This document shows, piece by piece, positions 56,101 through 62,434 of a stretch of 64,000 bases of DNA. Every line of letters begins with the position of its first letter. The stretch's first letter is position 1. The stretch covers positions 5,396,501-5,460,500 of the forward strand of contig NZ_CP128362.1 of the NCBI RefSeq assembly GCF_034274695.1, read 5' to 3'. The notes under the pieces are model-generated. The model was not told where the DNA came from and did not search any database. It saw nothing but the letters and a program-made list of their open reading frames with translations. Position numbers and translations under genes: made by a program. Source of the DNA: Chitinophaga sp. LS1 (GTDB lineage: Bacteria > Bacteroidota > Bacteroidia > Chitinophagales > Chitinophagaceae).

Positions 56101-56189
56101 GCGTATTAATACTCAATTAGTAACGGAGATATGCTATAGTTCCAACCTAAGTTGTAATATTAATGCTGTAACCTCAAAAATTGTTTGTT

Positions 56190-56729
56190 ATGGCGCTTGT
56201 TAAAGACAACATACTTCTTCAGGTTGTTCGGGGTACGCTCGGCGATCAAATCACGATTTACGAACGTAACGGGCAGATTATTATGGCGAAAAAACGCGGC
56301 CCGTCAAAGAAAAAGCCTACAAAGAAACAGCTGGAAGCCAGGTATAAAATGCAGGTAGCTGCGGCGTATGCGCGGGTGATCATCCAGGACCCGGAAATAA
56401 AGGCGTATTATAAGTCGCTGGCAGGCCCAGGACAGAATGCTTATAACATGGCCGTAAAGGATGCTTATAAGTCTCCTGAGGTGCAGAATATCCGGTTTGA
56501 AGAATCAACTGTGGTCGTGACGGCAAAAGACGAATTTAGGGTAGCAGAAGTGGATGTACGGGTAGTTGATGCTGCGGGTGACATTCTGGAAAGAGGGAAG
56601 GCGGTTTTAGGCAGGAATAGCGTAGAGTGGTATTATAAAGCAGCCAGTTTGCCGGTGGGCGGTAAGGTGATCGTTGTAGCGGTCGATTTGCCCGGGAATG
56701 AGACCGTCAGGGAGGTGAAACTGGAATAA
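56190..56729 (+). CDS. Hypothetical Bacteroidota protein
   Basis: 179 residues from MALVKDNILLQVVRGTLGDQ; a TTG three codons upstream is less likely. N-terminal VVRGTLGDQITIYERNGQII and the basic linker KKRGPSKKKPTKKQLEAR belong to a small family of Bacteroidota proteins of unknown function I have seen before without a name. The C-terminal 80 residues look like an Ig-like beta domain (VDVRVVDAAGDILERGKAVL). No signal peptide. Confidence 0.7.
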   Translation: MALVKDNILLQVVRGTLGDQITIYERNGQIIMAKKRGPSKKKPTKKQLEARYKMQVAAAYARVIIQDPEIKAYYKSLAGPGQNAYNMAVKDAYKSPEVQNIRFEESTVVVTAKDEFRVAEVDVRVVDAAGDILERGKAVLGRNSVEWYYKAASLPVGGKVIVVAVDLPGNETVREVKLE

Positions 56730-57643: not shown

Positions 57644-57710
57644 TACAAAATAGAAAAAATGAGTTTATCGGGATCATTTATTCTACGCAGCTTTGTATCA
57701 ACAAAAACGA

Positions 57711-58274
57711 ATGATCATGGAAATCACACAAACACCCGAAAATGCATTGTCTGCCTCTGTAGTAAGCGCCATTATCAATGCCCCCATTGAGAAAGTCAAT
57801 ATTGCTGACTGGTTATTAAATTTACCTGATGCGGAATATCAACGTTGTTCAATCAATCACATCGCAGCAGGCGTTTCCGCTACTTTTGACGGAACTCCGA
57901 TGTCTATTAATGTGGAAACTATTGGGAATGCGCTTGTGGTACAGCATTATGTGGCTACAGTAGCCCAACCGGATTACTGCCGTATGTTGTCTGTTTCTGA
58001 TACGATCACTGCCAGTGGAAGATCTAAGGTGCAGGTATTGTGGGAGCTTAGAGCAGAACGCATTGACGACCTTACCTGTCGATATACAAATACAATTCAT
58101 GCTACGGCTACGCCTGAATTTATGGCTTTTATAAAGGAACATGGAATTAGTCTTGCCGCAGCGGCACAGGCAAGGCAGGAGGCATCTGATGCACATAATA
58201 GGGAAGAAACACCCAATTTTGCAAAGAGTATTGAGAATAAAGCATTGTATGGACAGTATAATCTGCCTTTCTAA
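57711..58274 (+). CDS. Hypothetical protein, probable LysR target
   Basis: 187 residues from MIMEITQTPENALSASVVSA (start 57711; 57717 also possible). The first half, with PIEKVNIADWLLNLPDAEYQ and VQHYVATVAQPDYCRMLSVS, has the spacing of an SRPBCC-like lipid-binding fold, but this is a guess. The C-terminus is an Ala/Gln-rich helix. No signal peptide. Transcribed away from lysR across the T-N11-A box. Confidence 0.7.
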   Translation: MIMEITQTPENALSASVVSAIINAPIEKVNIADWLLNLPDAEYQRCSINHIAAGVSATFDGTPMSINVETIGNALVVQHYVATVAQPDYCRMLSVSDTITASGRSKVQVLWELRAERIDDLTCRYTNTIHATATPEFMAFIKEHGISLAAAAQARQEASDAHNREETPNFAKSIENKALYGQYNLPF

Positions 58275-58405: not shown

Positions 58406-58443
58406 AAATGTTTGCGGGTGAACAACTCCACCCGCAAACATTA
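58406..58443. terminator. Terminator overlapping the DUF3570 stop codon
   Basis: AATGTTTGCGGGTG / CACCCGCAAACATT, 14-bp stem, 8-base loop, overlapping the stop codon of the DUF3570 gene. Confidence 0.65.
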
Positions 58444-59634
58444 TTTAAACTTCAGATTCAACGAAACAATATTCGCCTGCAACCCATTAGTTTGCGTATA
58501 ATGCCCATACCTCAATTCCAGCATATTAAAATGCTGCCAGCCAAACACTCCATGTGGTGGTATCATACGTATTCCTGCACCAAAGAAATGACTGTCAAAA
58601 CCAGACAAATCATAATTGCTGGTATAATACTCATCCGCACTGGTATGCGCCTGATAGGCTGCAAAGTATTTCGTACCCACCTGATGATTATACCTGTAAA
58701 AAGGCGTAAGCGAATAAAATGGCGACAACTTCACAGAAGTCTCAAGACTCGCAGTATGCGCGGTGATGTTCCAGTTATCATGGTAATACCGATAATACCC
58801 CCGCAGCACTACTTTATCCCCCAGGAAATAGTTTGCCCGTATCCCTAAAGGTATTTTCAGCCTGCTATCTGGTAATTTCTCCACATGCACACTATTATCA
58901 TTGAAATACACCCTATGAAAAGGTAAGCCAAGATAACCGGATTGATAAATTACATCCATCAAAAACATCAGCTGGAACCGGGAGTTAACAATCTGTGACC
59001 ATGACACGCTGCCACTATAGGTTTTCCTCCCTGCCGTAGCGTAGTCATCATGTTCTCCATAACTGCCATCTGTTCTCAATTCAATAGGATATATCAGTTT
59101 CAGGTTATCCTGGTAGGTTTGCAGTTTAAGCGAGAATTCTCCCATTTTATTATGTGTCTTCTGTGCGAACAACAGGTTTGCACCGATAGACTGATAGTCA
59201 AATTCATGAGAGAAAGATACTCCTGCACCTAAGGTCGTCCCATTTTTATTCTCCATTTCCCAGGATACAGATGGGTAAAACCGCGTATCAGCAGATGAGG
59301 CAGAAGAAATCGTTTTAGGATCTATTTTGTCAGACGAAGCAGAGGTGTAGTGATCAATTCCCAGTTCTACATTCCAGGTATGCTTACGATCACGTTTGTC
59401 ATATTTTGAAAGTGTGACCTGTATGGAATTGGATAGATCTGTTAGGTTTTGTGTACCAATACCACCCGTCACCGCTGCATGATCACCATCCTGATGATAG
59501 TAGCTGGATATGATATTTACTTCTTCCAGTTGTAATGTCCGGTTTTTGTAGGTGCCGGAATCGGCAGGCGTTTGTGCATGCGCATACAATATACCTGCGA
59601 ACATTGCCAGTATAGCGAGGTTCAGTTTTTTCAT
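58441..59634 (-). CDS. DUF3570 outer-membrane protein
   Basis: 397 residues. Signal peptide (MKKLNLAILAMFAGILYAHA). DHAAVTGGIGTQNLTDLSNS and the alternating strands to the final SLNLKFK (terminal aromatic residue) match DUF3570 proteins, which look like outer-membrane beta-barrels. Fourth gene of the operon with thioredoxin, ApbE and DUF4266, nine bases from the DUF4266 gene. Function unknown; in this context it may be the outer-membrane partner of a flavin-dependent electron-transfer chain. Confidence 0.85.
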   Translation of the reverse strand: MKKLNLAILAMFAGILYAHAQTPADSGTYKNRTLQLEEVNIISSYYHQDGDHAAVTGGIGTQNLTDLSNSIQVTLSKYDKRDRKHTWNVELGIDHYTSASSDKIDPKTISSASSADTRFYPSVSWEMENKNGTTLGAGVSFSHEFDYQSIGANLLFAQKTHNKMGEFSLKLQTYQDNLKLIYPIELRTDGSYGEHDDYATAGRKTYSGSVSWSQIVNSRFQLMFLMDVIYQSGYLGLPFHRVYFNDNSVHVEKLPDSRLKIPLGIRANYFLGDKVVLRGYYRYYHDNWNITAHTASLETSVKLSPFYSLTPFYRYNHQVGTKYFAAYQAHTSADEYYTSNYDLSGFDSHFFGAGIRMIPPHGVFGWQHFNMLELRYGHYTQTNGLQANIVSLNLKFK

Positions 59635-59643
59635 ATAGCTTGT

Positions 59644-59868
59644 TTAGTTACAACCACATCCACCGCCGCTTTTAGCTCCATTAGCCCCGGAGGCACCTTC
59701 CCGGTAAGATTCGAAACTCAATTCTGTTTTTTCCACTTTGCGGTTGCCCAGCGTCATCTCACCATCATTCAGGCGATTCTTCTGGTATTCTTTGACGGTT
59801 GTACAAGAAGCCAGTAGGGTAGCGGTGATGCTACCCAGCACTATTAGCGTACAGGTTGTTTTAATCAT
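59644..59868 (-). CDS. DUF4266 lipoprotein with Cys-rich tail
   Basis: 74 residues. Lipobox LASC (Cys22) and TVKEYQKNRLNDGEMTLG, the signature of DUF4266; the end is GASGANGAKSGGGCGCN. EGASGAN resembles the [D/E]GxSGAT flavin-attachment motif but has Asn where Thr/Ser is needed, so attachment is not supported. The CGC tail might bind metal or exchange disulfides with the thioredoxin encoded upstream. Overlaps the ApbE stop by 4 bases. Confidence 0.85.
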   Translation of the reverse strand: MIKTTCTLIVLGSITATLLASCTTVKEYQKNRLNDGEMTLGNRKVEKTELSFESYREGASGANGAKSGGGCGCN

Positions 59869-60821
59869 TGAAGTTGGATATTATCTGAAGTAAATATTTT
59901 ATTCTGGTTGTCGATAATGATACAGGCAATCTGTTTAATCTGGTTAATCATATTCAGGCCGGCCCTGATACCCATGATCATCACGGGGGTGGCCATGGCA
60001 TCGGCTATTTCAGCATTGGTGCTGATAATGGATACACTTTTGATGCCTGTGACAGGTAGTCCTGTTTTCGGATCAATGGTATGTGAATACTTTTTCCCTT
60101 TTATGATTACATATTTTTCATAATTGCCGGAGGTAGCAATTGCCTGATCAGAGATGTTGAGATAAGAGAAGGGATGGAGTGTGCTATCTGGATCTGCAAT
60201 ACCTACGGTCCAGGGGGTGCCATCCGGTTGTGTGCCCCAGGCAGTCAGATCCCCTGCTGCATTGACGATACCGCTGTATACACCTCTCTGGCGCAACAAT
60301 TGCTTCGCGCATTCTGCGGCATACCCTTTTCCTATACCCCCAAAACCAATACGCATGCCCTTCTTTAGTAGCATGACTTCATTTGTTTCAGGGTTGACCC
60401 ATATATTCCGGTAATCGATCAGCTTAACCATTTCCCGGGCAGTATCCGGATCGGGTAATGTAGTCATTTGCTGATCGAAATTCCACAGACTTTTATCTAC
60501 AGATCCGTAACTCAGGTCAAAGGCTCCTTGTGTAATACGGGAGATTTTTGCTGCCCGCAAAATTAATTCGCAGACTTCCCTATCTACTGTTACAGGCTGG
60601 ATACCGGCATACCGGTTGATCATGGATGTCTGACTTTCTTCATTAAAGGTGGTGAGCAGGCGTTCAATACGACGTATTTCTTCAATGGCAGCATGGATGT
60701 GTGCCGAGGCTTTTTGCTCATTTTCGCATACAACCGTCAGCTCGAAACGATTGCCCATGAGTTTCAGTACCTTTCTGTATACCTTTTCTGTCAGGCATAC
60801 AACATCATTTTCCTGTAGCAT
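59865..60821 (-). CDS. apbE: ApbE family FAD:protein FMN transferase
   Basis: 318 residues from MLQENDVVCLTEKVYRKVLK; the ATG nine codons upstream is also possible, and both overlap the end of the thioredoxin gene. LMGNRFELTVVCENEQKA, GFGGIGKGYAAECAKQLL, YSGIVNAAGDLTAWG and the metal-binding NAEIADAMATPVMIMG are the ApbE blocks. The enzyme transfers FMN from FAD to a Thr/Ser of an exported protein. It has no signal peptide or lipobox, unusual since ApbE normally acts outside the cytoplasm. Confidence 0.9.
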   Translation of the reverse strand: MLQENDVVCLTEKVYRKVLKLMGNRFELTVVCENEQKASAHIHAAIEEIRRIERLLTTFNEESQTSMINRYAGIQPVTVDREVCELILRAAKISRITQGAFDLSYGSVDKSLWNFDQQMTTLPDPDTAREMVKLIDYRNIWVNPETNEVMLLKKGMRIGFGGIGKGYAAECAKQLLRQRGVYSGIVNAAGDLTAWGTQPDGTPWTVGIADPDSTLHPFSYLNISDQAIATSGNYEKYVIIKGKKYSHTIDPKTGLPVTGIKSVSIISTNAEIADAMATPVMIMGIRAGLNMINQIKQIACIIIDNQNKIFTSDNIQLQ

Positions 60822-61248
60822 GGAAGGTGTTTTTAAGCTGATCGACAAAACCTTCTGGTGTAGTATTGGGAATCCCTTCCCAGGTCTTTAATACCTTGCC
60901 ATTTTCATCGAGTAACAGTGTGTAAGGAAAATGGCCTTCTGGATTATATTTGTCCGCCAGGCTATCATTTCGCTTTTGTTGTTCCTTACTTAACTGATTC
61001 TTTTTTGAACGGGGGAAATCTGCATTAAGTAATACTAATTGCTGATCGGCAAAGGTTAGAAAGGCAGTATTATTAAAAAATTCATTTTTAAGGCGGATAC
61101 ATGGACCACACCAGTCAGATCCCGAAAAGTTTAATAGAATCAGGTGGTGATTGTTCACGGCTGTCTGTCTGGCCTTTTCAAAATCTGTTTCCCACACGGG
61201 GGTGGTAAATGTCCATAGGCATGACAATGCAATTAGCAGTACTTTCAT
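60805..61248 (-). CDS. Exported thioredoxin-like protein
   Basis: 147 residues. Signal peptide MKVLLIALSCLWTFTTPVW. LLNFSGSDWCGPCIRLKNEF carries redox cysteines 47 and 50; GHFPYTLLLDENGKVLKTWEG gives the cis-proline region. Belongs to the thioredoxin_7/DsbD-gamma-like group. First gene of the operon with ApbE, DUF4266 and DUF3570, overlapping apbE by at least 17 bases. Probably maintains thiols in the DUF4266 tail or delivers electrons. Confidence 0.88.
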   Translation of the reverse strand: MKVLLIALSCLWTFTTPVWETDFEKARQTAVNNHHLILLNFSGSDWCGPCIRLKNEFFNNTAFLTFADQQLVLLNADFPRSKKNQLSKEQQKRNDSLADKYNPEGHFPYTLLLDENGKVLKTWEGIPNTTPEGFVDQLKNTFHATGK

Positions 61249-61504: not shown

Positions 61505-62434
61505 TTACTGTCTGAACGACTCCCGAAATGCCAGCGGCGACATCCCCGTTTTCACTTTGAAAATTCTACTGAAAGACTGCGGGTGCTCAAACCCCAGTTC
61601 ATAAGCAATCTCACTAACTGACAATGTTGTTGTTGATATCCGTTCTCTTGCCACTGCAATCAATTTATCCTGAATATGCTGCTGGGTATTCCGCCCTGTT
61701 GCTATTGTCAACAATGTACTGAGATAATTACGGGAAAGATGCAATTGGTCGGCGATCTGCTGTACCGTTGGCACGCCGGAACTGAGAAGTTTTGTACTGG
61801 AAAACGCTTCTTTCAGCAGATCGTCTAATCGTTCAAGCACCTGGTGATTCGCTATCTTACGTGTCAGGAACTGTCTGTGATAAAAGCGGTCGGCGTAGTT
61901 GAGTAAAGCCTCTACATGGTTGATAATAATATGCTGACTAAACTGATCCATATTCGCCTGATATTCCTGCCGGATATTTTGAAGAATGCTTACGATGGTC
62001 GCTTCTTCCTTGTCAGATAAGAACAATGCTTCGTTTACTGAATAGTCAAAGTAATCATATCTTTTGATACCTTTTGCCAGTGAGGTATGCCAGAGAAAGT
62101 CAGGATGGATCAGGAGCATCCATCCCTTTACTTCATTGCTGTCACCTGCCGCATCCTGCCCCATGCCAAATACCTGTCCGGGAGCCATGAAATAGAGAAC
62201 GCCTTCGTCAAAATCATAGCGGTGTTGTCCGTATTTCAGATTCAGATTGAAATTCCGTTTGAGCGCGATCACATAAAAGTCAAATACCATGGATTTGGAG
62301 ACTTCCAGAAACTCTGCATTGACAGCTGTTAATTCCAGCACACTGATCGATGGGTGCATGGGCGGCGGAAATTTTCTGAGTCGATGCAGTTCGCTGATGG
62401 AATGGATGCGAACAGGTGATGTGTTTTTCATCAT
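61505..62434 (-). CDS. AraC family transcriptional regulator
   Basis: 309 residues. N-terminal cupin-like sensor, then VPTVQQIADQLHLSRNYLST and LSVSEIAYELGFEHPQSFSRIF, the two helix-turn-helices of the AraC domain, closing KTGMSPLAFRESF. A second ATG one codon in is equivalent. It is upstream of the thioredoxin-ApbE operon on the same strand, 257 bases away, and downstream of the SnoaL-like gene, which could be its target. A piece of this gene type is duplicated at 58305-58372. Confidence 0.9.
   Translation of the reverse strand: MMKNTSPVRIHSISELHRLRKFPPPMHPSISVLELTAVNAEFLEVSKSMVFDFYVIALKRNFNLNLKYGQHRYDFDEGVLYFMAPGQVFGMGQDAAGDSNEVKGWMLLIHPDFLWHTSLAKGIKRYDYFDYSVNEALFLSDKEEATIVSILQNIRQEYQANMDQFSQHIIINHVEALLNYADRFYHRQFLTRKIANHQVLERLDDLLKEAFSSTKLLSSGVPTVQQIADQLHLSRNYLSTLLTIATGRNTQQHIQDKLIAVARERISTTTLSVSEIAYELGFEHPQSFSRIFKVKTGMSPLAFRESFRQ

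Follow-up and report, generated by a model that had tools for sequence, protein, structure and literature searches.

The DNA considered here, which we call the window, is a stretch of 64,000 nucleotides from the 8.67 Mb genome of Chitinophaga sp. LS1 (NZ_CP128362.1, assembly GCF_034274695.1, positions 5,396,501–5,460,500). Our subject is a set of four genes at 58441–61248 of the window, all on the minus strand, as are the features within them, and arranged in the order Trx, ApbE, DUF4266 and DUF3570. Trx (60805–61248; PF13899, 41.6 bits against a cut-off of 27) encodes an exported thioredoxin-like protein of 147 residues with an N-terminal hydrophobic segment and an active site, read from the sequence, of Cys47-Gly-Pro-Cys50 (61099–61110). 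ApbE (59865–60848; PF02424, 271.3 bits against a cut-off of 25.6) encodes a transferase that moves flavin mononucleotide (FMN) from flavin adenine dinucleotide (FAD) to protein; its start is the TTG at 60848 or, equally likely, the ATG at 60821. The DUF4266 gene (59644–59868; PF14086, 61.9 bits) encodes a small lipoprotein of 74 residues, with a lipobox read as L-L-A-S-Cys22 (59803–59817) and a C-terminal dithiol tail, Cys71-Gly-Cys73-Asn (59647–59658). The DUF3570 gene (58441–59634; PF12094, 95.2 bits) encodes a predicted 16-strand outer-membrane β-barrel with a signal peptide, which is the proposed carrier of FMN.

ApbE overlaps the 3′ end of Trx, an ATGA overlap joins the stop of ApbE to the start of DUF4266, and nine bases separate DUF4266 from DUF3570. 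A terminator-like hairpin of 16 pairs (58407–58442) lies directly 3′ of the DUF3570 stop. Six terminator-like sites occur in the region, against 2.8 expected by shuffling, and this hairpin has the longest stem, the next having 8 pairs. An earlier reading of the same DNA, made from the sequence only, had described four overlapping or closely spaced genes, and that description holds: all four exceed their Pfam cut-offs, the spacing is operon-like, and the four genes are a real, single operon.

DUF3570 loci were fetched across the phylum and the order, 52 of the listed DUF3570 places being added to the earlier loci. Open reading frames scoring below 200 bits in our own DUF3570 profile, and DUF4266 frames below 55 bits, were dropped from the survey; the short loci L003–L032 served in the first round only, and L134–L163 were unused. 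The four-gene set is complete in 66 of the 80 loci outside Chlorobiaceae, with 10 lacking Trx and 4 lacking more; as these loci were picked as matches to DUF4266 (28) or to DUF3570 (52), the linkage is conditional on one of those genes. The linkage of the four genes is beyond chance. The sequence-only reading had proposed neighbourhood conservation as a check and an envelope redox system as the function. Both are supported: the linkage proves to be conserved, and the proposed function agrees with the findings below.

The flavin carrier of the operon is, we propose, DUF3570. According to the passages of Méheust 2021 (PMC8238504) drawn on here, the DUF3570 protein of Chlorobium luteolum is flavinylated by its own ApbE in E. 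coli at two [S/T]GA[S/T] sites, and flavinylation is abolished only when both motif serines are replaced. Our alignment comprises 172 DUF3570 proteins, among them that of the window (88 from Chlorobiaceae, 2 proteobacterial and 82 other). The C. luteolum protein is not among the best 120 of 845 matches to a Chlorobium ferrooxidans DUF3570, nor among the best 79 of 290 loci, and site equivalence with it rests on other Chlorobiaceae. Exactly two [ST]GA[ST] motifs are present in 113 of 121 Chlorobiaceae DUF3570 proteins, and in the alignment the two Chlorobiaceae motifs fall on residues 97–100 (TSAS) and 110–113 (SSAS) of the window protein, which lacks the two [S/T]GA[S/T] motifs and has a Gly-to-Ser variant in both aligned columns. 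Proposed site 1 is Asp94-His-Tyr-Thr-Ser-Ala-Ser100 (59335–59355), aligned to the Chlorobiaceae D-x-x-[ST]-G-A-S, and proposed site 2 is Ser110-Ser-Ala-Ser113 (59296–59307), aligned to the second Chlorobiaceae [ST]GAS. The sequence-only reading was right that no canonical attachment motif is visible, which is true, by eye, of [S/T]GA[S/T] in all four proteins. It had concluded that the carrier is either non-canonical or encoded elsewhere; the first alternative agrees with the xSAS sites of DUF3570, and the second is not supported, the likely carrier DUF3570 being a neighbour and three other known substrate classes (FMN_bind, DUF2271 and NQR2/RnfD) having no match in the genome at an E-value of 0.001.

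Across the alignment, site 1 reads SGAS in 50 and TGAS in 38 of the Chlorobiaceae proteins, [ST]GAS in both proteobacterial ones, and TSAS (48), SSAS (23), TAAS (6), ASAS (3), TSES (1) or TGAT (1) in the 82 others. All 172 proteins end site 1 with Ser or Thr. The Asp located three positions ahead of the first motif residue, which belongs to the seven-residue motif D-x-x-[S/T]-G-A-[S/T] given in the passages of PMC12052999 used here, is found in 88/88, 2/2 and 65/82 proteins of the three groups, respectively. Site 2, taken as [ST]xA[ST], is kept in 63/88, 0/2 and 68/82. A bridging form, with TSAS and SGAS within one DUF3570, occurs at locus L044. Among the 120 nearest homologues (about 60–94% identity; the nearest with a species name, among the matches listed, is that of Chitinophaga agri at 85%), D94, S98, A99, S100 and S113 are each present in 120/120. 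Conservation of this kind would be expected if the sites are in use with a changed Gly, and a change of Gly to Ala is partly tolerated in another substrate, which keeps about 50% of its flavinylation (PMC12052999, in the passages used). We infer that the window DUF3570 itself would be flavinylated, and that it very probably carries flavin through the S100 and S113 sites. The recognition motif would thereby be widened: a search for [S/T]GA[S/T] would overlook the two sites altogether in 63 of 82 DUF3570 proteins outside Chlorobiaceae.

Some DUF3570 proteins depart from this plan. Several copies per locus are found in Chlorobiaceae (L079, L082, L085, L087, L088, L090, L091, L100, L106 and L108), and a recognisable second site is absent from 25 of the 88 Chlorobiaceae copies, which may mean that paralogues with one flavin and with two occur side by side. 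At L172, L182, L187 and L195, site 2 is SSDSS, and the ApbE there has a His-rich start before IMGC or LMGC. L214 and L215 encode longer DUF3570 relatives (frames of 511 and 491 amino acid residues) and a divergent ApbE without the usual MG motif.

The AlphaFold2 models of the window DUF3570 (predicted local distance difference test, pLDDT, 86.7; predicted template modelling score, pTM, 0.80) and of a Chlorobaculum DUF3570 (pLDDT 83.0, pTM 0.79) are both barrels of 16 strands, as counted from the strand lists after one interrupted strand was joined and three short strands within a long loop were set aside. The top structural matches are outer-membrane proteins, and the window protein is predicted to be an even-stranded barrel with a signal peptide, as expected of an outer-membrane β-barrel. 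In both models, the two attachment sites are at or within the loop that follows strand 3, most of which has a pLDDT below 50. Outer-membrane barrels have both chain ends in the periplasm, and strand parity would then direct this loop outward, or let it fold into the lumen from outside. The loops after odd strands tend to be the longer ones, with 14, 14, 2, 20, 29, 4, 26 and 4 residues, and those after even strands have 5, 4, 5, 2, 3, 4 and 11; it is parity and these lengths that would place the flavin loop outward. Conservation does not settle the side of the flavin loop and is not counted as support for an outward pocket: the outward half is more conserved in the diverse non-Chlorobiaceae set (flip-test p 0.005), with p 0.10 for all sequences together, p 0.29 in the 120 nearest homologues and p 0.82 in 120 Chlorobiaceae proteins.

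ApbE is usually described as periplasmic, modifying exported proteins in place and needing FAD outside the cytosol. Neither start gives the window ApbE a signal peptide, and no hydrophobic segment precedes the first motif from any start; Trx, DUF4266 and DUF3570, by contrast, all have signal peptides. The 116 ApbEs in the fetched DUF3570 loci were scored by a leader rule: upstream of the first ApbE motif there must be a start codon and, no more than 35 residues on, a stretch of ten residues whose mean hydropathy is at least 2. Outside Chlorobiaceae there are 79 ApbEs (77 of Bacteroidota, the window's included, and 2 of Proteobacteria), of which 54 (52 and 2, respectively) are leaderless, 22 are leadered and 3 are fused. 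ApbE is leaderless, then, in 52/77 Bacteroidota loci outside Chlorobiaceae, and in 35/37 Chlorobiaceae loci; the two that score as leadered (L070 and L132) probably do so because the reading frame stays open ahead of the true start. As controls, the rule finds leaders on 83/94 DUF3570, 79/84 DUF4266 and 47/47 Trx proteins in the leaderless loci, and scores 63 of 1375 internal ApbE start codons as positive. In the fused loci, Trx and ApbE form one exported polypeptide (L037, 3368–4930; L173, 3542–4990; L211, 7309–8709).

A leader is found in 20 of 21 ApbEs not linked to DUF3570 (20 from same-order genomes with no listed DUF3570 match, and the second ApbE of the LS1 genome), and the remaining one looks like a near miss. 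The comparison of 52/77 with 1/21 leaderless gives a Fisher p of 1.4e-7, for sequences that are not independent. On a FastTree phylogeny of 137 ApbEs, with three states set by hand (L070 and L132 leaderless, the near-miss L233 leadered), the leader state switches 5 times, and 32 times or more in each of 200 shuffles; so few changes indicate that leader absence is a clade-wise trait. Nine of 99 same-order genomes have DUF3570 and exactly one ApbE, and that ApbE is leaderless in eight (L033, L034, L205, L208 and L210 by the rule; L245, L246 and L247 by eye). The exception, L244, is leadered by eye, in a genome that is 72% complete. Where the sole ApbE of a genome is leaderless and goes with an exported barrel, covalent attachment of flavin before Sec export seems feasible, and would offer a way round the export of FAD.

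Since the window ApbE lacks an export signal, the simplest account is that FMN is added in the cytosol to the DUF3570 precursor; attachment before export has, in our judgement, an even chance. In the demonstration with C. luteolum proteins, as the passages of PMC8238504 describe it, cloning in E. coli was akin to a signal-truncated strategy, and most of the DUF3570 ended up in the insoluble pellet. Taken together, these two circumstances make a chain that has not folded into a barrel seem a substrate, so that for one Chlorobium pair such chemistry is in effect demonstrated. Export of folded, flavin-bearing DUF3570 by twin-arginine translocation was considered and rejected, the twin-arginine pattern being found in 0 of 121 DUF3570 proteins.

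The other genes of the operon suggest how the flavins might be reduced. The window DUF4266 ends in the tail EGASGANGAKSGGGCGCN, with CGCN at its C-terminus; a CxC end is found in 140 of 140 DUF4266 proteins scoring above 55 bits, as is the Glu of the REG/KEA stretch. A DsbD-like gene closely follows ApbE in 26 of the 39 Chlorobiaceae and Proteobacteria loci with ApbE. The LS1 genome has one DsbD (a DsbD_TM protein), about 5 Mb from the operon in coordinates. A relay of DsbD, Trx and flavin is proposed in outline by Méheust in the parts of PMC8238504 consulted. For the path and electron direction suggested here, from DsbD through Trx and DUF4266 to flavin, the arguments for and against seem to us evenly balanced.

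Taken as a whole, the operon is best explained, and probably explained, as a thiol-to-flavin relay that ends in a flavin-bearing outer-membrane barrel whose FMN is attached before export. ApbE would move FMN from FAD to Ser100 and Ser113 of DUF3570, and would do so in the cytosol, on the precursor. The flavinylated, unfolded chain would then cross Sec and fold into the outer membrane; SecYEG reportedly tolerates bulky adducts, a point said to go back to Bonardi 2011. In the envelope, electrons would pass from DsbD, encoded elsewhere, to the exported Trx, on to the CxC tail of DUF4266 and finally to the flavins of DUF3570. It is tempting to go further and imagine a cytochrome-free conduit, in which two FMNs set before export pass Sec and the β-barrel assembly machinery (BAM), come to lie in the outward loop after strand 3, and are reduced from the periplasm by the Gly-rich CxC tail of DUF4266, so that electrons leave the cell; in this full form the idea is tentative and, on balance, doubtful.

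Several points weigh against this explanation. The leader test is a hydrophobicity rule, not SignalP, and it missed 11 of 94 DUF3570 leaders. ApbE is leadered in 22 loci, and in 3 it is part of an exported Trx–ApbE fusion; in these sister lineages flavinylation likely takes place outside the cytosol. The second, exported ApbE of the LS1 genome could flavinylate in the periplasm. Aligned to solved ApbE chains, the window ApbE has the TSG.YE, H..DP and ADA.AT motifs, and has Gly where the solved proteins have the Asp of DLG. Among the ApbEs surveyed outside Chlorobiaceae, whether leadered or leaderless, Gly prevails at this position; those of Chlorobiaceae retain Asp. A recognisable site 2 is missing in 14 of the 82 DUF3570 proteins outside Chlorobiaceae, and flavinylation at a Gly-to-Ser motif is presumed from chemistry known for other forms of the motif. 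Finally, there is no DsbD in the window cluster, and none scoring above 55 bits in any of the 80 loci outside Chlorobiaceae.

Four other explanations have to be weighed. The leaderless ApbE might reach the periplasm after all, either joined to the exported Trx upstream by a ribosomal frameshift or by read-through, or through non-classical export, and flavinylate DUF3570 there. Single-frame, leadered Trx–ApbE fusions do exist in L037, L173 and L211, the two window genes overlap, and one frame offset prevails, in 29 of the 46 leaderless loci with Trx upstream. Yet the offsets vary among these 46 Bacteroidota loci (0 in 4, 1 in 29 and 2 in 13), a spread on which a conserved programmed frameshift between the two genes was rejected, and the remaining 6 of the 52 leaderless Bacteroidota loci have no Trx directly upstream. 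Chlorobiaceae, moreover, have leaderless ApbEs in loci where the Trx profile detected no Trx. We regard delivery of this ApbE to the periplasm as improbable.

Alternatively, the second ApbE of the LS1 genome (L054, 4920–5882), which is exported and has no linked known flavin substrate, might flavinylate DUF3570 in the periplasm, with the operon ApbE modifying some other, cytosolic protein. The neighbours of this second gene, labelled by eye, are presumably acyl-CoA dehydrogenase-like and decarboxylase-like genes. FMN_bind (PF04205, the NqrC/RnfG type) has no match in the genome at an E-value of 0.001, in a search that was positive in 4 of 14 known genomes, and DUF2271 and NQR2/RnfD likewise have none at that value, control genomes being positive in each search. 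NqrC, DUF2271 and NqrB/RnfD were rejected on these grounds as ApbE targets in LS1. Within the sensitivity of the FMN_bind search, the outcome that the sequence-only reading had named as refuting its idea, an ApbE whose sole target is NqrC, is likewise excluded for LS1. In favour of this alternative, an exported ApbE with no known linked substrate is present, these three classes have no match in the genome, and there is a precedent for an ApbE that works in the cytosol, on a fumarate reductase located there (PMC12052999, in the passages used). Against a division of labour of this kind, the leaderless ApbE is the only one in 8 of the 9 single-ApbE genomes with DUF3570, and the operon ApbE is linked to exported proteins. 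This alternative, too, seems to us to have little probability.

A third explanation is that the Gly-to-Ser change at both sites abolished flavinylation in this lineage, and that DUF3570 works flavin-free. The window protein lacks [ST]GA[ST], the Asp of DLG in its ApbE is Gly, and in one other substrate a Gly-to-Ala change reduces flavinylation, with about 50% retained, according to the portions of PMC12052999 consulted. Relaxed sites would be expected to drift, however, and the five residues D94, S98, A99, S100 and S113 are invariant in the 120 nearest homologues; the operon, moreover, retains an ApbE in which TSG.YE and H..DP are present. The loss of flavin is, to our mind, decidedly improbable. 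The last explanation, that DUF4266 carries the flavin at a degenerate EGASGAN site, has in its favour a local resemblance to the motif and is scarcely credible, since its acceptor column holds N, T, G, A or S, SGAT occurs in 1 of 140 tails, and the serines of DUF3570 are near invariant.

The tail counts fail to support the part of the sequence-only reading that had singled out the DUF4266 near-motif as a possible carrier and suggested looking for Thr or Ser in place of Asn. In the column of the window Asn, N stands in 65 of 81 tails outside Chlorobiaceae, T in 7, G in 6, A in 1 and a gap in 2; the 59 Chlorobiaceae tails have A in 39 and S in 20. With no conserved attachment residue, DUF4266 was rejected as carrier. 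The sequence-only reading had overlooked the variant sites of DUF3570, the absence of a leader on ApbE and the earlier publication of the cluster.

Around the operon lie three further genes or frames. An AraC-type regulator (61505–62434, minus strand) lies directly upstream, on the same strand, and is a possible regulator of the operon. On the plus strand, a reading frame of 193 residues (57693–58274) is convergent with the operon, and another of 182 residues lies at 56181–56729; neither has a Pfam match.

The DUF3570 cluster itself is already published (PMC8238504) and is ordinary in kind. In the passages of that work drawn on here, clusters that combine ApbE, DUF3570, DUF4266 and a PF13899 thioredoxin are described as common; DsbD is frequently part of them (316 are without a linked DsbD), and the CxC end of DUF4266 is noted. 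The LS1 operon shares with the clusters of Méheust 2021 ApbE, DUF3570, the CxC-ended DUF4266 and the PF13899 thioredoxin; it differs, as far as those passages go, in having xSAS in place of [S/T]GA[S/T], and its ApbE is leaderless. The same passages discuss neither the location of ApbE in DUF3570 clusters nor an outer-membrane placement of DUF3570. Among the papers searched, DUF4266 and DUF3570 are each mentioned in that one work, no title listed for ApbE and export deals with flavinylation before export, and no paper joins the terms flavinylated, outer membrane, porin and ApbE. As far as these passages and searches go, a Gly-to-Ser flavin motif and a leaderless ApbE with an exported partner are undescribed. 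The cytosolic ApbE of Klebsiella pneumoniae (PMC12052999, in the passages used) likewise lacks a signal peptide, but its substrate is a soluble cytosolic fumarate reductase, whereas the linked substrates in LS1 are exported.

Two further systems invite comparison. The window Trx resembles DsbH (NF043050) in being an exported single-domain thioredoxin, but at 77.1 bits it falls far under the curated cut-off of 190 bits and is related to that family, not a member of it. DsbH acts with DsbD. Porin–cytochrome conduits such as MtrCAB use a barrel to bring redox cofactors, in their case haems, to the cell surface. If DUF3570 presents its flavins outward, it would be like MtrCAB in being a surface redox barrel, with flavin and dithiols in LS1 in place of haems; the likeness meant is one of concept.

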